Assembly (NCBI GenBank): GCA_002722795.1
Contig: PBMY01000023.1
Span: forward strand, 1 to 64,000
Length of the DNA: 64,000 nt
DNA from: Crocinitomicaceae bacterium
GTDB lineage: Bacteria > Bacteroidota > Bacteroidia > Flavobacteriales_D > Sanyastnellaceae
Direction: 5' to 3'
Below the pieces are notes generated by a model. It did not search any database. It was not told where the DNA came from and saw nothing but the letters and a program-made list of their open reading frames with translations. The position numbers were made by a program, and so were the translations under genes. Shown here one piece after another: positions 331-36,929 of the stretch (its first letter is position 1; each line of letters begins with the position of its first letter).

Positions 331-1946
331 GTAACTTGCCAGCTGACGGTTACGACTGTGATGGTAATTGTGTAAACGACTCTGACGGTGACGGAGTATG
401 TGATGAGTTCGAGGTAGATGGTTGTACTGATGCTGAGGCTTGTAACTACGACGAAGACGCTACAGAAGAGGACGGAACATGTGAATACCAAGAGCTAACT
501 ACTCTTCCAGGTGCTGTTGAATCTCCATCATGTGGACTATTCTTCAGCGGATACGCAGAAGGATCTTCTAACAATAAGTTCTTAGAGATTTACAACCCAA
601 CTGATTCTGATATCGAACTTGACGGATTTGCATTCCCAAGCGTAAGTAATGCTCCTACTACTCCTGGTCAGTATGAGTATTGGAATATATTCCCAGAAGG
701 AGCATTTGTTGCTGCTGGTGATGTATATGTAATTGCTCACCCATCTGCTGATGAAGTGATACTTGCCGAAGCAGATCACTTCCACCCATACCTATCAAAT
801 GGTGATGATGGATACGCTCTAGTTCAAGGAACTGAGTCTGCTTACACAATACTTGATGCAATTGGTGATTGGAATGGAGATCCTGGACAAGGATGGGATG
901 TTGCAGGTGTGTCTCAAGCCACTAAGGATCACTCATTAATCCGTAAGTCAGATGTAAATAGCGGTAACAGCGGTGATTGGTCTACTTCTGCTGGAACAAA
1001 TGCTGATGATTCAGAGTGGATTGTTTTATCCCAAAACGATTGGACTGGAGTTGGTTATCATGAATTCACTGGTTCTTGTTCAGCTCCTGCTCCAGTTGCA
1101 ACAATTGGAGACTGTGATGTGTTTGAAAATGGTCCAAATGCACTTTGGACTCACGTTTACACTTTAACAACTGCAAGTGATGACAACAGTTCTTCTGCAC
1201 AGTCATTTACTATTAATGTAACATCTTTACCTGTTGGTGGAGCGAATTACAGAATTGTAAAAACAGTTGCAAATGGAAACTGGAACAATGGACCTGCTAT
1301 AGCATTAAACGAGGGTATAAACACTAAGACTGTTCCTGGTGTTGCATTTAACCGTACTGTTAAAGTACAGTTCTCAAGTGGAGACATTGAGTTTGATACA
1401 TTCATTGTTAATGGTGCTGATGTAAATACATGTGCTGTTGCACCAGTTACTGAAGCATACGTCTACGACTGTGACGGAGAATGTATCAATGATGCTGATG
1501 GTGACGGTGTATGTGATGAGCTTGAAATCTCCGGATGTACTGATTACGCAGCTTGTAACTATGACGCATCTTCTACAGATGATAATGGTACTTGTGAATT
1601 CGTTTCATGTGCAGGTTGTATTGACGAAGGTGCTTGTAACTATGACGAAGACGCAATCATTGAAGATGGATCTTGTACTTATGCAGAAGCCAACCAAGAT
1701 TGTGATGGCAACTGCTTGAACGATGAAAACTCTAATGGTATCTGTGATGAAGATGAAGTTTTAGGATGTATGTACGAGGATGCTTGTAACTACAACCCAG
1801 ACGCTAACATGATCGACATGTCATGTGACTTCAGCTGTCTAGGAGTCATCGAGGACGATTGTCCAGGTGACCTTAACGATGATGGTGAGGTTGACGTGAG
1901 TGACCTTCTTGACTTCTTCCAGTTATGGGGTAACATATGTGAGTAA
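1..1946 (+). CDS. Large secreted Cys/Asp-rich repeat protein with lamin-tail domain, 5' end missing
   Basis: The reading frame is open from the window edge (first full codon at 3), so the gene starts upstream; 647 residues are visible. In order: two copies of a 62-residue repeat rich in DADADG and DDCGVCNG motifs (nt 3-330), a DCDGNC/NDSDGDGVCDE unit with GCTDAEACNY, a lamin-tail-like β domain (about nt 530-1080, with FLEIYNPT), a second β domain (nt 1100-1440), three more GCxxxxACNY units, and a C-terminal dockerin-like loop (CPGDLNDDG, nt 1860-1943). The spaced Asp residues suggest calcium binding, as in thrombospondin type 3 repeats; this is inference. No T9SS type A or CHU_C domain is present at the C terminus, so the export and anchoring route is unclear. 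A strong terminator follows. Specific function unknown. Confidence 0.85.
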   Translation, partial: ADADADGVCDDVDDCVGAFDDCGVCNGPGAIYDCGCSDIAEGACDCDGSVLDALGVCGGSCAADADADGICDDVDECVGEFDDCGVCNGPGAVYDCGCSNIPVGDCDCEGNLPADGYDCDGNCVNDSDGDGVCDEFEVDGCTDAEACNYDEDATEEDGTCEYQELTTLPGAVESPSCGLFFSGYAEGSSNNKFLEIYNPTDSDIELDGFAFPSVSNAPTTPGQYEYWNIFPEGAFVAAGDVYVIAHPSADEVILAEADHFHPYLSNGDDGYALVQGTESAYTILDAIGDWNGDPGQGWDVAGVSQATKDHSLIRKSDVNSGNSGDWSTSAGTNADDSEWIVLSQNDWTGVGYHEFTGSCSAPAPVATIGDCDVFENGPNALWTHVYTLTTASDDNSSSAQSFTINVTSLPVGGANYRIVKTVANGNWNNGPAIALNEGINTKTVPGVAFNRTVKVQFSSGDIEFDTFIVNGADVNTCAVAPVTEAYVYDCDGECINDADGDGVCDELEISGCTDYAACNYDASSTDDNGTCEFVSCAGCIDEGACNYDEDAIIEDGSCTYAEANQDCDGNCLNDENSNGICDEDEVLGCMYEDACNYNPDANMIDMSCDFSCLGVIEDDCPGDLNDDGEVDVSDLLDFFQLWGNICE

Positions 1947-23266: not shown

Positions 23267-23309
23267 TTACTGCGCAACCTCTTAGGGAAATATGCGTCAT
23301 AGTTGTGAT

Positions 23310-26300
23310 ATGAAAAAACTGACTTCACTACTTTCATTCCTCGCTCTTGTAACTTTCAATGTTGAAGCTCAAAAGAGCGTTCCAAATGGCGCTCAAGGAA
23401 CCACTGTTCCCGGAGAATTAATTGTTATGTTTCACAGTGATTTAGATCCAGTTTTATTTTGTAATAAGTATAAAAGTGTAAGTGGATATAAATCTGGACT
23501 TCGACCTGTAAAAGTTCTTTCCGATTTATCTCACATACATTTAATGAAATATGACGATGTAAGGTGTGATGGTGATGTCTTACTTCGTGAATTAAGTAAG
23601 GATAGAGCTGTAGAAGCAGCTCAGTACAATCATTTTGTAGAGGACAGAGCTACGCCAAATGACCCATCTTTTTCTCAGCAATGGCATCACATACAGAGTG
23701 GTGACCACGACATTGATAGTGATTTGGCTTGGGATATTACTACTGGTGGAGAAACCGCAATGGGAGATCAAATTGTTGTGGCTGTTTTAGAAGGTGGTGG
23801 TTCAAATTGGGACCATACAGATTTAATTGCTAATCATTGGGTAAACAATGGTGAGATTCCAGGTAATGGACAGGATGATGACGGTAATGGTTATGTGGAT
23901 GATTACAATGGTTGGAATACGACTTCGAATAACGATAATATTTCAGCAGGCTCACATGGTACTTCTGTTAGTGGTATGATAGGAGCAAAGGGTAATAACA
24001 ATAACGGTGGTGTTGGTGTTAATTGGGATGTTGGGATAATGCAGATTCAGATGGGCGGACTTTCAGAGTCAAATGTTATTTCCGCATATAATTACCCATA
24101 TGTAATGAGAAATTTGTTTAATAACACTAATGGTCAACAAGGAGCATTTGTTGTTGCGACAAACGCCTCGTGGGGTATTGATTTAGCAAATCCATCAAAT
24201 TATCCAGTTTGGTGCGCTTATTATGATGATTTAGGGGAAGTAGGAATTCTTAATTGCGGTGCAACAGCAAACGCTCAGTATAATATCGATACTCAAGGTG
24301 ATATGCCAACTGGATGTGGTTCAGATTACATGGTCAGTGTGACTGCAACTAATTCAAACGACGTTAGAACATTCTCTGCTTATGGAGCAACAACGATTGA
24401 TTTAGCTGCACCAGGTGAAAACGTGTATTTACCCTCAGGATCTTCTAGTTATTCTTCTACAAGTGGAACGTCATTTGCAACTCCCTGTGTTGCTGGAGCA
24501 ATAGCGTTAGTATATAGTGTTCCTTGTTCTGATTTGGCCACAAGCGCAATGACAAACCCTCAAACAACAGCAGATATGGTCAGGGGCTATATTCTTGAAG
24601 GAGTTGATGTGGTTTCAAATTTGGTTGGAGAAACAGTAACCGGAGGTAGACTCAATGCCTTTAACTCAGTTAGTATTGCAATGGGTAATTGCAATTCAGA
24701 TTTCGGTTGTACAGATTCTTTAGCTTGTAACTATAGCCCCGAAGCAATAGAGGATGATGGTTCTTGTTTGTACTACGATGAATGTGGGGACTGCGGTGGA
24801 GATAATAGTACGTGTATTGGTTGTACAGATCCACAAGCTTGTAATTACTTGCCTGGAAGTATATTAGACGATGGAAGCTGTGTTTATGGGAACGGGGTAT
24901 CTATTTATGTTGGTGGTGGATCATGGGATAATGAGATTACTTGGGCTCTTTCTTTGAATGGAAATATAGTTGCAAATGGTGACATCGGTACACAAGACCT
25001 TTGTATTGGAGAAGGGTGTTATACTCTTACTATGTATGATAGCTATGGAGATGGATGGAATGGCGCAACATATTCGCTTATTGATTTAGCATCTGGAGGA
25101 GTAATTTCAGTAGGTGATTTGGATAGTGCAATGGAGGGTGATGGTAATAATTCAGGGCAGGATTATATTTCTATTGGTGATGTTAATTGTGGTATTGGTT
25201 GTACAGATGCTTTAGCTTGTAACCATGATCCAAATGCAGAATTTGATGATGGCTCATGTATATATGATTGCATAGGTTGTACAGATCTTTTAGCATGTAA
25301 TTATGATGTTTTTGCTACACAAGACGATGGCACTTGTTTATACTTTGATGAATGTGGAGAGTGTGGTGGTGATAATAGTTTATGTACAGGTTGTACAAAT
25401 TTAGAAGCGTGTAATTATGACCAGGATGCAATTATTGATGATGGATCCTGTATTATTGGAGGGTCAGGAGTTAGCATTTCAGTTCTAACGGATAATTATC
25501 CAGGAGAGACTTCTTGGCAAATTTCTAGCTTAGAAGGAATAGTAGCTTCAGGAGGAGTGTACTCAACTGCATTTACTCTTTATGAAGAATTGCTTTGTTT
25601 AGAAGATGGATGTTACTCATTTACAATAAATGATTCATGGGGTGATGGAATTTGTTGCGAATACGGTGAGGGTTATTACGAAATAAATTCTGGTGGTGTT
25701 GTAATTGCATATGGAGGCGATTTCTTAAATAATGAAACAGTAATGTTTTGTGTCGGTGAGAGTGAAATGGGATGTACTGATGCTAGCGCATGTAACTATA
25801 GCCCAAATGCTGTAATGGACGATGGATCATGCAACTACGATTGTATTGGATGTACTGACCAAGAAGCATGTAATTACGATTCAACAGCCATTCAGGATAG
25901 TGGGGATTGTGTGTATCCGGATCCAACATATGGATGTAATTGTGAGACAGTAATTGAAATCAATTCTGTGTTAGTTGGTTCTGCAAGCGCTGATGCAGTT
26001 TCGTTTCAAGGTCAAGGAGTCATAGAATCAATTATAATTGACATGAATTGGGAGGATGTTGAATTTAGTGCTAGTTGGCCTGCAGATCTTTTAATTCAAG
26101 TAGAAACTCAAGATGGGGACTGTTTTGAGTTTGGTGGATATAATGTAACATCAGGAACATGCGAATTCTTGGGAAATTATGCTACCTTTTTTCCTGATAC
26201 ATGGCAAAACTCTACAAACGGTCAGTATTCTGCTGAAATTTATTTGTTAGATCTAGGGTTTGTTGTTGAGGGTGATGGAATGTGGTCAGTAACAATAACA

Positions 26301-26753
26301 AATGGTTATACATTTTCTGAGGGAGCGCTATACAATGGGACAATCGCTTTTGTTGGCATATGTGATATTGAAGATGTGTTGGATGTGCCAGGGTGTACAG
26401 ATAACACAGCTTGTAACTATAACCCTGAAGCTACATCTAATGATGGTTCTTGTTTATACTTTGATGAATGTGGGGAATGTGGTGGTGATAATAGCACTTG
26501 TGTAGGTTGTACAGATGAATTCGCATGTAATTTTAATCCAGAATCCATAGTAGATAATGGTACATGTGAATACGAAACTTGTAGCTGTCCAGAAGATATA
26601 AATAATGACGGAATCATATCTGTAGCTGACATTTTGATACTACTTGGTGAGTTTGGATGTATGAATAATTGTAATGCTGATATTAATGATGATGGTGTTA
26701 CAAACGTTCAAGATATTTTATTACTCCTTGCATATTTCGGAACTGAGTGTTAA
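23310..26753 (+). CDS. Secreted S8 subtilase with Cys/Asp repeats and dockerin-like tail
   Basis: 1147 residues; the ATG at 23310 (MKKLTSLLS) gives a clean signal peptide, 23292 being also possible. A propeptide-like region is followed by the peptidase: His216 (SHGTSV) and Ser388 (SGTSFATP) are present, but the catalytic Asp position reads Glu161 (AVLEGG). Then come nine GCTDxxACNY-type units, three DECGxCGGDNS units, two copies of a ~100-residue domain with DS(Y/W)GDG (nt 24892-25200 and 25459-25770), a proprotein-convertase-like β domain (nt 25960-26370) and two dockerin-like loops (DINNDG, DINDDG) at the end. No T9SS domain is visible. It starts 43 bases after the mutase gene. Confidence 0.87.
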
Positions 26754-31028: not shown

Positions 31029-33443
31029 ATGAAGCAATTGCTATTCTTAGCTAGTTTACTATTTACGCTTGGACTTCGAGCTCAGGTTACTAGCATTTCT
31101 GTTGAAACTTATGTTGTACACGACGGCTCTATAGCTGAGTTAGAAGGTTACACAACTTACCACGTATATGCTAATACAACAAACTCAGAAGATTTTATTT
31201 CTGCTGTGTATGGTGACTCTGAAAATCCAATGGGAATAAGTGCTGCTGGTGATGTTTACCAATCAGCTCCATCATTCAATTTTGGTTCAGAAGTTAACCC
31301 AATGATGTTTGCTGTTCTTCCAACTTTGGAATTCGATTCATGGATGACAATCGGTATGATGTCTTCTGAAGATGCAGGTGTAATCGGAAACATTGGATTA
31401 GACCAAGCTTTTTCTGACTTTACAGCATCCGGTTCTTTTTATGTTGATGATCCAATTGGAGGATCTTGGTACAATACAATGCCTTGTGACCCTTCAGTTA
31501 ATGCAACATGCACTTCTTCTTTCCCACAATTTGGTGGAGAAGATAATCAGGTTCTTTTGGCCCAAGTCACAACAAACGATAGCTTCTATGGGGTTTTCAA
31601 TCTTCAAGTTTTTAATGGTGGTGATCAAGCATTAAACGAATACGTAAATGGTTTATGTTTCAGCTCAGACCCTAATGCTGTTTGTGGTTGTACAGACGAG
31701 GCAGCTTCTAATTACAACCCTGATGCAACTAATGATGACTACTCTTGTGTGCTTCCCTGTAATCTTGAGTTAGTAGTTGAATCTGTTGTGCCTCCAACTT
31801 GTTCTGGAGATAATGATGGAGCTTTAGTAATTACAGCAACAGGTGCTCAAGGTTCTGATGACTTTTATTTAGGAGAGGATGATGATCAACCATCAAACTT
31901 TGGAAACTTCAATGGCCTTCTTGCAGGAACATACTATGTTATGGTAGAGGATGGAGCTGGATGTCAGGTTTCTCAATATGTTGAGATTCCTGAAGTAGCT
32001 GCTGTTACCGTTGATGCATCTCTTACTCAGGCTATGTCTTGTAACAATACTAACGACGCAATTATTGAAGTTGTTGGTATGGGTGGAGATGGTAATTTAC
32101 AATACTACTTTGCAGGAGACGATCCATCTACTATGTCTGACAACACAGTGTTTACTGATTTAGTTGCTGGTTCTTATACTATAGTTGCTGTTGATGGAAA
32201 TGGATGTACAGGTGCTTCAGGTCCTACTCAAATTAGTAACCCACCTGCTATAAACGTATATGTGACAGCTTCTTCTGATGCTTCTTGTGCTGACGTTGCA
32301 GATGGTCAGATTGTGGTTTCTGCAATTGGTGGTGCTGCTCCAACAACTTTAGAATTCCTTGTTGATGGCAATACTTATGTATCAAGCCCTATAATGATTT
32401 ACGCTGGTACATTTACTGTACAAGCAATTGACATTAACGGGTGTACTGGCTCTGCTGCTGACGAAGTAGTTATAGGTCCTTCTCCAATCAGTGTAAACGC
32501 TTCTGTTAATGCAGTTGCATGTACAGATGAGGAAAGTGGTTCGATTTCATGGGCTCCAACTGGTGGAGCTGAGGGTTATGAGGTAAAAGTTGACGGTGTG
32601 GTGCAATCAGGATCTTCTCTTGATAATCTTGCTGTAGGATTTTACACTATTCTAGTTGAAGATGCTAACGGTTGTAACTCTTCTGAAATTGTTGAGGTAT
32701 TAAACGCTGAACCAATTGTTCCTTCTGTTGAAGTGACAAATGCACTTTGTAATGGTTCTGAAGATGGTTTTGTCGTTGTTAATGCAACTGGCGGAACAGG
32801 TTCATATCAGTACTCAGATGATGATAATACATATGGATCAATTAACGAATTCGATAATTTAGGAACTGGCGACTATGTATTCTATGTTCAAGATGAAAAT
32901 GGATGTGAAGTTGCAATAGATGCTGAAGTAGAGGAGCCTACAATAATTAATGTTACTGGAATTGTTTCTCATGACCCTACTGATGAAGGGGAGGGGACAA
33001 TTACAGTAAGTGTAGTAGGAGGTACACCTGATTACTATTATGATTGGAGTGGCCCTGACGTTAATGGTACAAACACACAAGATCTTGCTGGGCTATCAGC
33101 AGGAACATATACTTTAGAGGTTACAGACGGAAACGGATGTACAGCAGTTCAGCAGTTTATGGTTTCGTCAATTTTCGAAGTCCACAACGGCGTAGAAATG
33201 TCAGTTTACCCTAATCCAAGTACAGGAATATTTAATATTCAGTGGGATGTTTTAAATGGCGGTGAAGTTCAATACACTCTAGTCGATGCAGTTGGAAGAA
33301 CTGTTGAGTCTGGAACTTGGTATGAATCAGGCACTACTTTCAACGTGATGTTAGACCTTCAGAAATTTGAAAATGGTCTATACAGCCTAAATATTGTATG
33401 TAACGGTACGCCTTCATCAATTCAATTGATAAAGGCCAACTAA
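31029..33443 (+). CDS. Secreted SprB-repeat protein with T9SS type A domain
   Basis: 804 residues. Signal peptide (MKQLLFLASLLFTLGLRAQ), then a ~190-residue domain (residues ~20-215) with DFISAVYGD, FDSWMTIG and IGGSWY, also found twice in the next gene. One GCTDEAASNY unit follows. Residues ~245-690 hold about six SprB-like repeats, each with a C-x-D/G-G-x-I/V-x-V-x-A/V-x-GG pattern and an Ala-Gly-Thr-Tyr stop (LLAGTYYVMVED, LSAGTYTLEVTDGNGC). The T9SS type A domain starts MSVYPNPSTG near residue 720. SprB-like proteins act as adhesins or in gliding; this one is probably surface-exposed. A terminator follows. Confidence 0.87.
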   Translation: MKQLLFLASLLFTLGLRAQVTSISVETYVVHDGSIAELEGYTTYHVYANTTNSEDFISAVYGDSENPMGISAAGDVYQSAPSFNFGSEVNPMMFAVLPTLEFDSWMTIGMMSSEDAGVIGNIGLDQAFSDFTASGSFYVDDPIGGSWYNTMPCDPSVNATCTSSFPQFGGEDNQVLLAQVTTNDSFYGVFNLQVFNGGDQALNEYVNGLCFSSDPNAVCGCTDEAASNYNPDATNDDYSCVLPCNLELVVESVVPPTCSGDNDGALVITATGAQGSDDFYLGEDDDQPSNFGNFNGLLAGTYYVMVEDGAGCQVSQYVEIPEVAAVTVDASLTQAMSCNNTNDAIIEVVGMGGDGNLQYYFAGDDPSTMSDNTVFTDLVAGSYTIVAVDGNGCTGASGPTQISNPPAINVYVTASSDASCADVADGQIVVSAIGGAAPTTLEFLVDGNTYVSSPIMIYAGTFTVQAIDINGCTGSAADEVVIGPSPISVNASVNAVACTDEESGSISWAPTGGAEGYEVKVDGVVQSGSSLDNLAVGFYTILVEDANGCNSSEIVEVLNAEPIVPSVEVTNALCNGSEDGFVVVNATGGTGSYQYSDDDNTYGSINEFDNLGTGDYVFYVQDENGCEVAIDAEVEEPTIINVTGIVSHDPTDEGEGTITVSVVGGTPDYYYDWSGPDVNGTNTQDLAGLSAGTYTLEVTDGNGCTAVQQFMVSSIFEVHNGVEMSVYPNPSTGIFNIQWDVLNGGEVQYTLVDAVGRTVESGTWYESGTTFNVMLDLQKFENGLYSLNIVCNGTPSSIQLIKAN

Positions 33444-33469
33444 ATCCTAAAAAGTCAATTATTTTGTGT

Positions 33470-33500
33470 AGGGAGGTCATAACGGCCTCTCTGCTTTTTA
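33470..33500 (+). terminator. Terminator of the first SprB-repeat gene
   Basis: AGGGAGGTC pairs with GGCCTCTCT (nine pairs, two G-T) around ATAAC, followed by a T-rich stretch. It separates the two giant repeat-protein genes. Confidence 0.75.
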
Positions 33501-33587
33501 TACATTGATATGTTAAGTTTTGAATTGATTAAGAGTTATATATTCAATGGAATTCTTATCTTTAAGACGTAAATACAAACAAGTCAA

Positions 33588-36500
33588 ATGAGTTTATTTA
33601 AATACCATTTCCTTTTACTATCATTACTTGTAGGCTTTACAATGCCGGTAATTAGTCAGTATTCATTAACGGTAGAAGCTATGCCTGCAACTACAGTTGA
33701 AGGCACGTCTTATCGTATGTATGTTAATATGCAAGATCCTACAGACAGGATGAGTGCGGTATTTGGAAATAACCAAACTCCACTTGAAATTTCAGCTTTT
33801 AATGGTGCATATAACAACAGCTTTAACTCTAGCTGGAGTGCTTCAGGAATCAACCCAATGTTTTTGCCTATGTTCCCGGAAATGGCTGATGATACTTATG
33901 CAACAATAGGGTTAGATGGCCCAGCATCAACTTCAGGTGTTGACGGTGCAGAGGATCCTTCTTTAGTTGAAGATATGGACCAGCCGATTACTCCATTTTT
34001 CCAAGTTGATGGAACTACATATGTTATAGCTAGTACATTAACCGGAGCTTCTTATTATGTATTAAATACTGCGGCTAATGGCTTACCTGATGAAAACTTA
34101 AGGGTTTTAATTATGCAGGTTACTACTACTGGTGATTTGTGTGGTACTCTTAATTTTCAAATCTTCCCTCTAGGTGAGGGCACAAATCAGCAACAATTAA
34201 CAGTTGAATTCTGTGGAGATGGTACATTTGAGGCAGGTGTACCATCAGCGAATGGATGTACAAATGTTTTAGCCTGTAATTACAATGAAAACGCAAATGA
34301 AGACGATGGTAGTTGTTTTTATGCAGAGGAGGGGTATGATTGTGATGGAGAATGTTTAGAAGATTTAAATGCCAATAATATTTGTGATATTGAAGAGATT
34401 TTTGGTTGTACAATTGTTCAAGCTTGTAACTATAATCCTGATGCAACTTGGAATGATGGTAGTTGTGACTTCACATCTTGTCTAGCACTTGGATGTACAG
34501 ATCCTATTGCTTGTAATTTTGATCCTGAAGCAATTTATGAAGATGGGTCATGTGATTATTCAACTCTACCGTACGACTGTAATGGTGAGTGTTTGAATGA
34601 TTCAGATGGTGATGGTATTTGTGATGAGTTCGAAACCTTTGGTTGTACAGATATGGTTGCTTGCAACTACGATCCTGAAGCTACAAGTGATGACGGAAAT
34701 TGTACTTACGCTGAAATGTATTACGATTGTGAAGAAAACTGTATTGATGATGAGGATGGAGATGGTATTTGTGACATTAATGAAGTTTCTGGTTGTAATG
34801 ATGTAAATGCATGTAACTTCGACGCTGATGCTACTGATAACGACGGATCTTGTGATTACTGTTCTTGTGCTGATTCAGGGACTGACGGATATGGATTAGA
34901 AGTTGAATTGATTGAAGAGCATACTTCAGGAGATTTAGCCGGAATGTCTACATACAGATTACATCTAACTACACCGCATGATGATGATTTCCTTTCAGCT
35001 ATATATGGTGATGAGAATGATCCACTAAATGTTGGTTCATCATCATCATTCTACCAACACCCATTTGGATCTCACCTAGGATCAGATATGTTCCCTCAGA
35101 TATATCCAACATTCCCAGAACTTGAGTTTGATAGTTGGGTTACAATTGGTCTAGATCAAGGTGCTGGAGATGGGGAAGCTGCGCCACAAGCAATTCAATC
35201 AACAGAATTTTCTTGGGTAGAACAGTTTGAAGCTGGTGGTGATATTGAAATTGATGATTCTATAGGTGGTTCATGGTTTGTACTTGATCCAAATGGAACT
35301 TCTAATGCAGTTTCAGGAGATGATCAAAAAATCTTAATAATGCAGCTTACTACAGATGGAATTCCATCCGGAACAATTCATGCTCAGTTGTTTAATCATG
35401 GTTCTCAAGAAGATGTTTCTCAGATTACCTTATCGTTTGTTGGGATTTCTGGAACAACAGCTTCATCTTGTGGTTGTACATCTGAGATTGCTTGTAACTA
35501 CGATCCAAACGCTACTGAAGATGACGGTAGTTGTGAGTTTGCAGAAGCAAACTATGATTGTGATGGAACTTGTCTTAACGATTCAGATGGAGACGAAGTG
35601 TGTGATGAGGAAGAAGTTCTTGGTTGTCTAGATGAAACGGCATGTAACTACAATGAGAATGCTACAGACAATGACCTTGACCTTTGTGAGTATGCTGATA
35701 TGAACTACGATTGTTTAGGAAATTGCATAAACGACGAAGATGGAGATGGAGTTTGTGATGAGGAAGAAGTTCTTGGTTGTACAGACATGGACGCTTGTAA
35801 TTACGACTCATCAGCAACTGATAACGACAATAGTTGTTTGTATGCTGATATTTACTACGACTGTGAAGGTAACTGTTTGAATGATTCAGACGGTGATGGA
35901 GTTTGTAATGAAGAAGAAGTTCTTGGTTGTACTGACGAAATTGCTTGTAATTACAACGTTGATGCTACTGATGAAGATGGTTCTTGTTTGTATGCTGATG
36001 AATACTACGATTGTGGTGGAATATGTATAAATGACTCAGACGGTGATGGTATTTGTGATGAGTTAGAGGAGCTAGGTTGTACTGATATGGGCGCTTGTAA
36101 TTATGACGAATTAGCTACAGATGACGATGGAAGCTGTGAATACGAAAGTTGTGCTGGATGTACAGATGAGGAATCATGCAACTATGATGTTGATGCTACT
36201 CTTGATGATGGCTCTTGTTCATACCTTGCAATTGTTGATGGTACTACTGTTGACGCAAATTGTAATGGAGACCTTGGATCAGTAACAATTGTCGCTGACG
36301 GTGGTGTAGGAGTTGTTACTTACATAATAGGTGATGATTCAAATGAAACTGGAGTATTCGAACTTGCTGCTGGTATATATACTGTATCTGTGTCTGATGA
36401 CTCAGGTTGTTCAGATGAAGTAGAAATTGAAGTGAGTGAACCAGATGTTCTTACGCTTGAGGCTACAGCTACTGATGAAACATCTACTGAATTAGGCGTT

Positions 36501-36929
36501 GGTACTGCAACTACGACGGGAGGAACAGGTGCTATTGGTATAGTTTGGATTGATTCCGAAGGAAACGATGTAGATCCTGATGGTCTTTCTACTGGTGCTT
36601 ACATAGTAATTGCAGAAGACGAAAATGGATGTACAGATACTGTTGAGGTAGACGTAATATTCAACACTATAAGTGTAATAGACCCAATTGCATTCAATAT
36701 ATTCCCTAACCCAACAAAAGGCGACGTTACAATTCAGATACCTCAGGCATTTAACGATGTTCTAGTTCAAGTGTTTGATGGAGCTGGAAGAGTTGTGTTT
36801 TCCTCTCTGTACGGAGTACTACAAGGAGATATTACGATTAATCTTAGCAACATAGCCGCTGGAACATACAACGTAATGTTGAGCAATAATAAAGGCAACT
36901 CAGTTAGAAGATTGTCTATCGTTAGATAA
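33588..36929 (+). CDS. Giant secreted Cys/Asp-repeat protein with T9SS type A domain
   Basis: 1113 residues. A signal peptide ends near VISQ. The ~190-residue domain of the upstream gene occurs twice, at about residues 24-215 and 445-625. Eleven GCxDxxACNY units with DGDGxCDEEE loops fill the spaces, five of the last forming a regular 50-residue array. Two SprB-like repeats follow (near 890-1020), then a T9SS type A domain starting FNIFPNPTKGD. The Asp-rich loops resemble thrombospondin type 3 calcium sites. Surface structural or adhesive role inferred. A bidirectional terminator follows. Confidence 0.87.
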   Translation: MSLFKYHFLLLSLLVGFTMPVISQYSLTVEAMPATTVEGTSYRMYVNMQDPTDRMSAVFGNNQTPLEISAFNGAYNNSFNSSWSASGINPMFLPMFPEMADDTYATIGLDGPASTSGVDGAEDPSLVEDMDQPITPFFQVDGTTYVIASTLTGASYYVLNTAANGLPDENLRVLIMQVTTTGDLCGTLNFQIFPLGEGTNQQQLTVEFCGDGTFEAGVPSANGCTNVLACNYNENANEDDGSCFYAEEGYDCDGECLEDLNANNICDIEEIFGCTIVQACNYNPDATWNDGSCDFTSCLALGCTDPIACNFDPEAIYEDGSCDYSTLPYDCNGECLNDSDGDGICDEFETFGCTDMVACNYDPEATSDDGNCTYAEMYYDCEENCIDDEDGDGICDINEVSGCNDVNACNFDADATDNDGSCDYCSCADSGTDGYGLEVELIEEHTSGDLAGMSTYRLHLTTPHDDDFLSAIYGDENDPLNVGSSSSFYQHPFGSHLGSDMFPQIYPTFPELEFDSWVTIGLDQGAGDGEAAPQAIQSTEFSWVEQFEAGGDIEIDDSIGGSWFVLDPNGTSNAVSGDDQKILIMQLTTDGIPSGTIHAQLFNHGSQEDVSQITLSFVGISGTTASSCGCTSEIACNYDPNATEDDGSCEFAEANYDCDGTCLNDSDGDEVCDEEEVLGCLDETACNYNENATDNDLDLCEYADMNYDCLGNCINDEDGDGVCDEEEVLGCTDMDACNYDSSATDNDNSCLYADIYYDCEGNCLNDSDGDGVCNEEEVLGCTDEIACNYNVDATDEDGSCLYADEYYDCGGICINDSDGDGICDELEELGCTDMGACNYDELATDDDGSCEYESCAGCTDEESCNYDVDATLDDGSCSYLAIVDGTTVDANCNGDLGSVTIVADGGVGVVTYIIGDDSNETGVFELAAGIYTVSVSDDSGCSDEVEIEVSEPDVLTLEATATDETSTELGVGTATTTGGTGAIGIVWIDSEGNDVDPDGLSTGAYIVIAEDENGCTDTVEVDVIFNTISVIDPIAFNIFPNPTKGDVTIQIPQAFNDVLVQVFDGAGRVVFSSLYGVLQGDITINLSNIAAGTYNVMLSNNKGNSVRRLSIVR
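35468..36220 (+). repeat. 150-bp tandem repeats coding for the Cys/Asp modules
   Basis: Units begin ggttgtaca or ggttgtact and recur at exactly 150 bases (for example 35775 and 35925), coding 50 residues each: GCTDxxACNY, then ATDxDxSC, YYDCxGxC, NDSDGDGxCDEEE. The DNA is similar enough for recombination to change copy number. Confidence 0.8.

Follow-up and report, generated by a model that had tools for sequence, protein, structure and literature searches.

What role is played by an extracellular domain that recurs three times in two adjacent genes of a marine member of the Flavobacteriales and that carries no family name? The two genes, referred to here as gene 1 and gene 2, lie in a stretch of 64,000 nucleotides from a Crocinitomicaceae bacterium (contig PBMY01000023.1, assembly GCA_002722795.1), the whole of which is called the window; the domain, about 190 residues long, is designated domain X and its copies in the window A, B and C. 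Per genome, the number of X copies tracks that of dockerin-like C-terminal tails, which suggests domain X as the socket for such tails. Since X numbers follow these tails and not the sorting tails of the type IX secretion system (T9SS) or the SprB repeats, and since the tails are without a known receptor, cohesins recur among the weak structural neighbours of X and X proteins themselves mostly end in T9SS or dockerin tails, domain X may tentatively be taken as a putative extracellular receptor for dockerin-like tails, a reading that we consider plausible rather than probable.

The dockerin-like tails were counted with a clade-specific profile (A3). Over the 37 genomes of the family to which the window's genome belongs, X copies and tails were correlated with a Spearman coefficient of 0.87, and averaging by genus gave a rho of 0.93 (n = 21), or 0.95 as a partial correlation given the number of T9SS tails and genome size. 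Within the window's genus alone rho was 0.72 (0.77 with both numbers normalised to completeness, 0.59 as a partial rank correlation controlling for completeness), and outside that genus it was 0.89. When the tails were counted as candidates of the neutral Pfam dockerin model the coefficient was 0.80, and it was 0.50 with the few Pfam-threshold matches alone. Because the correlation is found within the genus, outside it and with the neutral model, a loss of probe sensitivity with distance is unlikely to be its cause. The corresponding values were -0.20 for T9SS tails, which were taken as candidate counts and not as match counts, the latter being capped at 78, and -0.03 for SprB repeats. Among the 60 genomes searched as relatives, domain X and dockerin-like tails occurred together in 40, the tails alone in 1 and neither in 19, with no genome having domain X alone; the single genome with tails and without X (G050) has a classical cohesin match.

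The original prediction, which had placed three related copies in the two neighbouring genes, was confirmed by pairwise BLASTP at 30–32% identity: A and B share 30% over 173 columns (E 1.9e-15), A and C 31.5% over 184 columns (E 1.2e-30), and B and C 31% over 192 columns (E 4.3e-24). The copies align end to end, with 28 columns of the three-way alignment invariant and distributed along the whole length and, judged from their sequences, they are homologous over that full length, beyond short motifs. The motifs listed at the outset were recovered, including IGGSW(F/Y) in two copies, namely A and C, where B has LTGASYY. The description of both products as surface proteins was likewise borne out, each combining a signal-peptide-like start, recognised by eye, with the C-terminal tail PF18962/TIGR04183 (Por_Secre_tail), as is characteristic of T9SS type A cargo. 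The SprB match of gene 1 extends over 4 stretches (E 3.9e-20). From related loci, 240 copies were gathered by an iterated hidden Markov model search run to convergence, and 86 diverse copies were aligned with the three of the window (alignment A2, 89 members). The domain proved to be unnamed, as had been supposed, with no match, and hence no clear assignment to an existing family, in Pfam-A (2025), NCBIfam 20.0, PHROGs v4 or PDB sequences. Pfam and NCBIfam scans with each of the 89 members gave only isolated sub-threshold matches, cohesin (PF00963) matched neither the window proteins nor any member, and the A2 profile matched no PDB sequence (best E 1.4). Matches to TDP-43_C (E 0.04), DUF7012, SbsC_C and choice_anch_R, all below cut-off, isolated and limited to single members, were dismissed as chance. 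On these sequence comparisons domain X is undescribed in the Pfam, NCBIfam, PHROG and PDB libraries searched, and searches of the open-access literature gave no title or abstract that describes it or a receptor for dockerin-like tails. It merits a family model of its own, since hundreds of surface proteins carry it without annotation.

The window's genome (1.74 Mb, 83% complete) holds 13 copies of domain X according to the profile search, ten of them beyond the window. All 37 family genomes, the window's among them, carry the domain, in 1–36 copies each and over genome sizes of 1.4–4.6 Mb, and a few copies were found in 3 of the 23 genomes outside the family in the same set of 60. An order-level sample of 299 genomes gave matches in all family genomes but three and, outside the family, in 11, mostly weakly; the phylum-level sample gave 3 of 395, namely that of the window itself, a second genome of the family and one from elsewhere in the order. 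These profile searches covered Bacteroidota, other phyla being covered by a GTDB-wide pattern scan alone, from which 80 loci were kept, in Flavobacteriales or other Bacteroidota metagenome-assembled genomes, except one labelled Euryarchaeota. That apparent archaeal occurrence (L120, PBNL01000044.1, genome G452, 'Euryarchaeota archaeon SP189') was rejected as a mislabelled Bacteroidota metagenome-assembled genome of the window's genus, its size and match coordinates being identical to those of G012, a member of that genus. Viral contigs, phages and plasmids, where searched, contained no relatives of the domain. It is clear that domain X is a family-wide expanded extracellular module of one marine Flavobacteriales family, rare elsewhere in Bacteroidota.

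Of the X proteins, 72 have an intact C-terminus: a T9SS tail closes 41 of them and a dockerin or half-dockerin (single-repeat) tail 23, while the other 8, of which some are frame-broken, have neither. A protein may contain up to 5 copies of domain X, and stand-alone single-domain versions of 223–243 amino acids also exist (L114, L028, L011 and L099). In several congeners the gene of a stand-alone X protein and that of a dockerin-tailed protein are neighbours in tail-to-tail orientation (L028; around G011 C2:7226-7997). The assertion that domain X is always followed by a GCTDxxACNY unit (GCTD unit) stands for the three copies of the window and fails as a universal rule: in related loci 203 of the 242 assessable copies (~84%) have a GCTD-type unit behind them at a distance of no more than 40 residues, and some copies are alone or precede other modules. 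Near-invariant polar positions of the domain are, in the numbering of copy C, T27, R29, D39, D87, S88, T91, Q158, T160 and Q172.

According to the A3 profile, the window's genome encodes 20–21 dockerin-like tails and its relatives in the family 1–74 each, and both DxNxDGxxxxxD calcium loops are conserved (columns 4, 6, 8 and 15, and 32, 34, 36 and 43). Family-wide, the Cys-rich two-repeat tails mostly score below the Pfam and NCBIfam cut-offs (L145–L174, L187–L216), and the tail of the window's subtilase reached 21.9 bits with the Pfam dockerin model, the cut-off being 22.9, and passed together with its neighbours in a second scan; the tails of this family need a clade-specific model. A related tail is that of NF041540, the NCBI 'GC-type dockerin domain-anchored protein', which was matched here below its cut-off. 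Ten dockerin-tailed proteins besides the subtilase were examined in the window's genome, nine with full tails and one with a single repeat (L231); they comprise a sortilin/BNR protein, an endonuclease I, two vanadium-peroxidase-like proteins, two choice-of-anchor B proteins, an esterase-like protein, a PKD/MopE-motif protein and two FG-GAP/UnbV proteins. Domain X is present in none of the ten, a terminal T9SS tail was reported on none, and each holds 0–2 GCTD units. Of the ten, the two vanadium-peroxidase-like proteins, which resemble vanadium-dependent chloroperoxidases, are those of loci L222 and L225 (G000 C14 and C7). Anchoring as the role of the tail is suggested by the choice-of-anchor families, named for swapping their C-terminal anchors, and by the NCBI label 'dockerin domain-anchored'.

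In clostridial dockerins, loop positions 10 and 11 set the specificity for cohesin. In the present tails these positions are mostly V/I, then most often A, in both repeats, and such uniformity would fit a single kind of receptor common to many of the tails. The window's genome has no classical cohesin (PF00963), and no more than 5 of 40 relatives have a match that reaches the cut-off, so that the dockerin-like tails are without a known receptor. In one relative within the same bacterial family (L175, G022 C45), a protein combines approximately four cohesin-like domains in tandem with a dockerin at its C-terminus; the adjacent protein looks T9SS-tailed and has dockerin-like repeats in its interior, the two possibly representing a classical cohesin-dockerin cluster. 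A divergent X-like segment, seen by eye and unscored, is found in a protein with a classical cohesin match (L177, G021). A second class of tail is formed by the half-dockerins (CPxDLNGDGxxxxxDLLxFLxxFGxxC; L228, L229, L230, L232 and L233), often preceded by a GCTYxxAxNY unit and located on large proteins, X proteins among them. The features of the window are listed in Table 1.

Table 1. Genes, domain X copies and C-terminal tails in the window.
Feature	Position	Strand	Description and basis
Gene 1	31029..33443	+	804 aa; signal peptide, copy A, one GCTD unit, SprB repeats, T9SS type A sorting tail; open reading frame (ORF) and Pfam
Domain copy A	31086..31685	+	BLASTP to C and B; profile match E 6.5e-91
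GCTD unit right after copy A	31686..31751	+	GCTDEAASNYNPDATNDDYSCV; sequence of gene 1 product
T9SS sorting tail (Por_Secre_tail) of gene 1	33204..33404	+	Pfam, residues 726-792, E 1.6e-12
Gene 2	33588..36929	+	1113 aa; signal peptide, copy B, five GCTD units, copy C, six GCTD units, T9SS sorting tail; ORF and unit positions
Domain copy B	33657..34253	+	BLASTP to C, E 4.3e-24
Domain copy C	34872..35441	+	BLASTP; 190 residues, modelled
T9SS sorting tail (Por_Secre_tail) of gene 2	36699..36920	+	Pfam, residues 1038-1111, E 2.4e-13
Subtilase gene	23292..26753	+	4.3 kb upstream of gene 1; Peptidase_S8 E 7e-26, Dockerin_1 E 2e-4; putative partner type
Two-repeat dockerin-like C-terminal tail of subtilase, in place of T9SS tail	26586..26750	+	Clade profile E 7.8e-26
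Half-dockerin (single-repeat) tail of lamin-tail-domain (LTD) protein (ORF 336-1946)	1854..1940	+	Clade profile E 2.1e-5; LTD E 1.6e-8

Structure prediction, proposed together with the domain, was run on copy C using alignment A2 and AlphaFold2, and resulted in a confident model (predicted local distance difference test, pLDDT, 96.4; predicted template modelling score, pTM, 0.91) that is all-beta with short helices. In a Foldseek comparison with the PDB its most frequent weak neighbours were cohesins, mainly of type II, which took 18 of the top 50 places with a probability of up to 0.96, E > 0.005, template modelling (TM) scores of ~0.3–0.44 and root mean square deviations of 6–10; complement C3, pilins, staphylococcal adhesins and adaptor ears were the other weak neighbours, and comparison with viral structures gave nothing clear. 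A second model was made of a natural 274-residue protein in which a divergent X copy is joined to a GCTD unit and a dockerin, and reproduced the secondary structure of X at lower confidence. The term 'cohesin-like', for a fold that in cohesin itself is a nine-stranded jelly-roll, would accordingly describe, as far as these models go, a weak structural hint for domain X.

If domain X is a receptor, the T9SS-tailed proteins would display it on the cell surface, in the socket role held by cohesin in cellulosomes, and exported enzymes whose C-terminus is a dockerin-like pair of EF-hands, the subtilase of the window being one, would plug into X and remain at the surface, with the X proteins ending in a half-dockerin adding a second tier. 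A wider proposal, which we put forward as putative and regard as doubtful, is that domain X represents a new class of dockerin receptor in a cellulosome-like display that is not for cellulose, in which T9SS-exported X scaffolds of these marine Flavobacteriales would capture dockerin-tailed enzymes and perhaps carry them across the outer membrane. Several points weigh against a receptor role. The receptor model gives no account of how dockerin-tailed proteins lacking a T9SS tail cross the outer membrane. The family genomes share descent, so that the correlation is phylogenetically non-independent, and GCTD units can accompany both X and the tails, so that co-expansion of shuffled modules could yield it. 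There is no clear clustering of X genes with dockerin genes; by a rough estimate, X-centred loci with a tail are about as frequent as expected from density. Among solved structures in the PDB, Foldseek found none at E < 0.001 for the copy C model, the top 50 of the second model hold only four cohesins, behind adaptor mu-homology domains, and that model shows no docking of the dockerin on X in cis (pTM 0.67, dockerin pLDDT ~50–75). Profile comparison of X with cohesin (PDB and relatives) by hhalign gave a probability of 0.2%, within the range of column-shuffled controls.

Domain X might instead be a general adhesive or ligand-binding head on T9SS proteins, directed at a glycan, an algal surface or a particle and without a role for dockerins; its copy number would then go with how many surface interactions a lineage makes, and the dockerin-tailed enzymes would expand with the same lifestyle. 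We take this to be a serious possibility, if less than probable, as a modular build, with copies in tandem separated by GCTD spacers and export through the T9SS, is reminiscent of adhesins, the copies are strongly divergent (~30% identity) yet keep near-invariant polar positions, and pilins and staphylococcal adhesins are among the weak fold neighbours; it would, however, leave unexplained both the specific tracking of dockerin tails (rho 0.87–0.93), and not of T9SS tails or SprB, and the absence of any other known tail receptor. That X is a structural spacer or folding module, the correlation reflecting co-expansion of one shuffled extracellular toolkit of X, GCTD units, dockerin and half-dockerin tails, seems unlikely: although GCTD units go with X and with some dockerin tails, and X and half-dockerins occur together in some proteins, a domain of 190 residues with near-invariant polar strand residues and stand-alone versions appears to be more than a spacer, and the ten dockerin-tailed proteins examined have few GCTD units and no X.

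The recurrence of cohesins as structural neighbours of both models would also be compatible with X being a distant, unrecognised member of a described superfamily, for instance a true cohesin hidden by divergence, but with a negative profile-profile comparison, no structural match at E < 0.001, TM scores of at most 0.44 and the greater length of X this is quite improbable. Hardly more can be said for the view that a secretion machine recognises the dockerin-like tail as a signal for sorting or anchoring, with X an unrelated cargo domain of that export route. The tails do form the very end of the protein, where they stand in for a T9SS tail, and choice-of-anchor families are among those that bear them; the DxNxDGxxxxxD pattern in both repeats, however, is that of a protein-docking EF-hand module, and such a signal would leave the tracking of tails by X without explanation.

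Should domain X indeed be a receptor for dockerin-like tails, a partner would be found for orphan dockerins that NCBI labels merely 'anchored', it would become understandable how T9SS bacteria could keep dozens of enzymes at the surface when these do not each carry a T9SS tail, and a second protein-docking pair would stand beside cohesin and dockerin. Like X as modelled, the type I and II cohesins of cellulosomes (PF00963) are extracellular beta-sandwiches repeated in multi-domain display proteins of genomes with many dockerin-tailed enzymes, and X repeats are likewise borne on T9SS-tailed proteins in genomes that also encode dockerin-tailed enzymes; unlike cohesin, domain X is longer, T9SS-borne in a Gram-negative family and without profile similarity, at a TM score of ~0.4. 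With the Ig-like domains of staphylococcal adhesins (MSCRAMM) and pilins it shares an all-beta surface module and weak Foldseek matches, whereas a significant structural or sequence match is absent. T9SS type A surface proteins with SprB repeats have the same export tail as X proteins, and SprB repeats are present in gene 1 itself, but domain X is unrelated to the SprB repeat and its numbers are independent of it. The tails that co-vary with X belong to, or near, the GC-type dockerin (NF041540) and Dockerin_1 (PF00404), from which they differ in that many fall below the curated cut-offs, their repeats are Cys-flanked and single-repeat versions occur.

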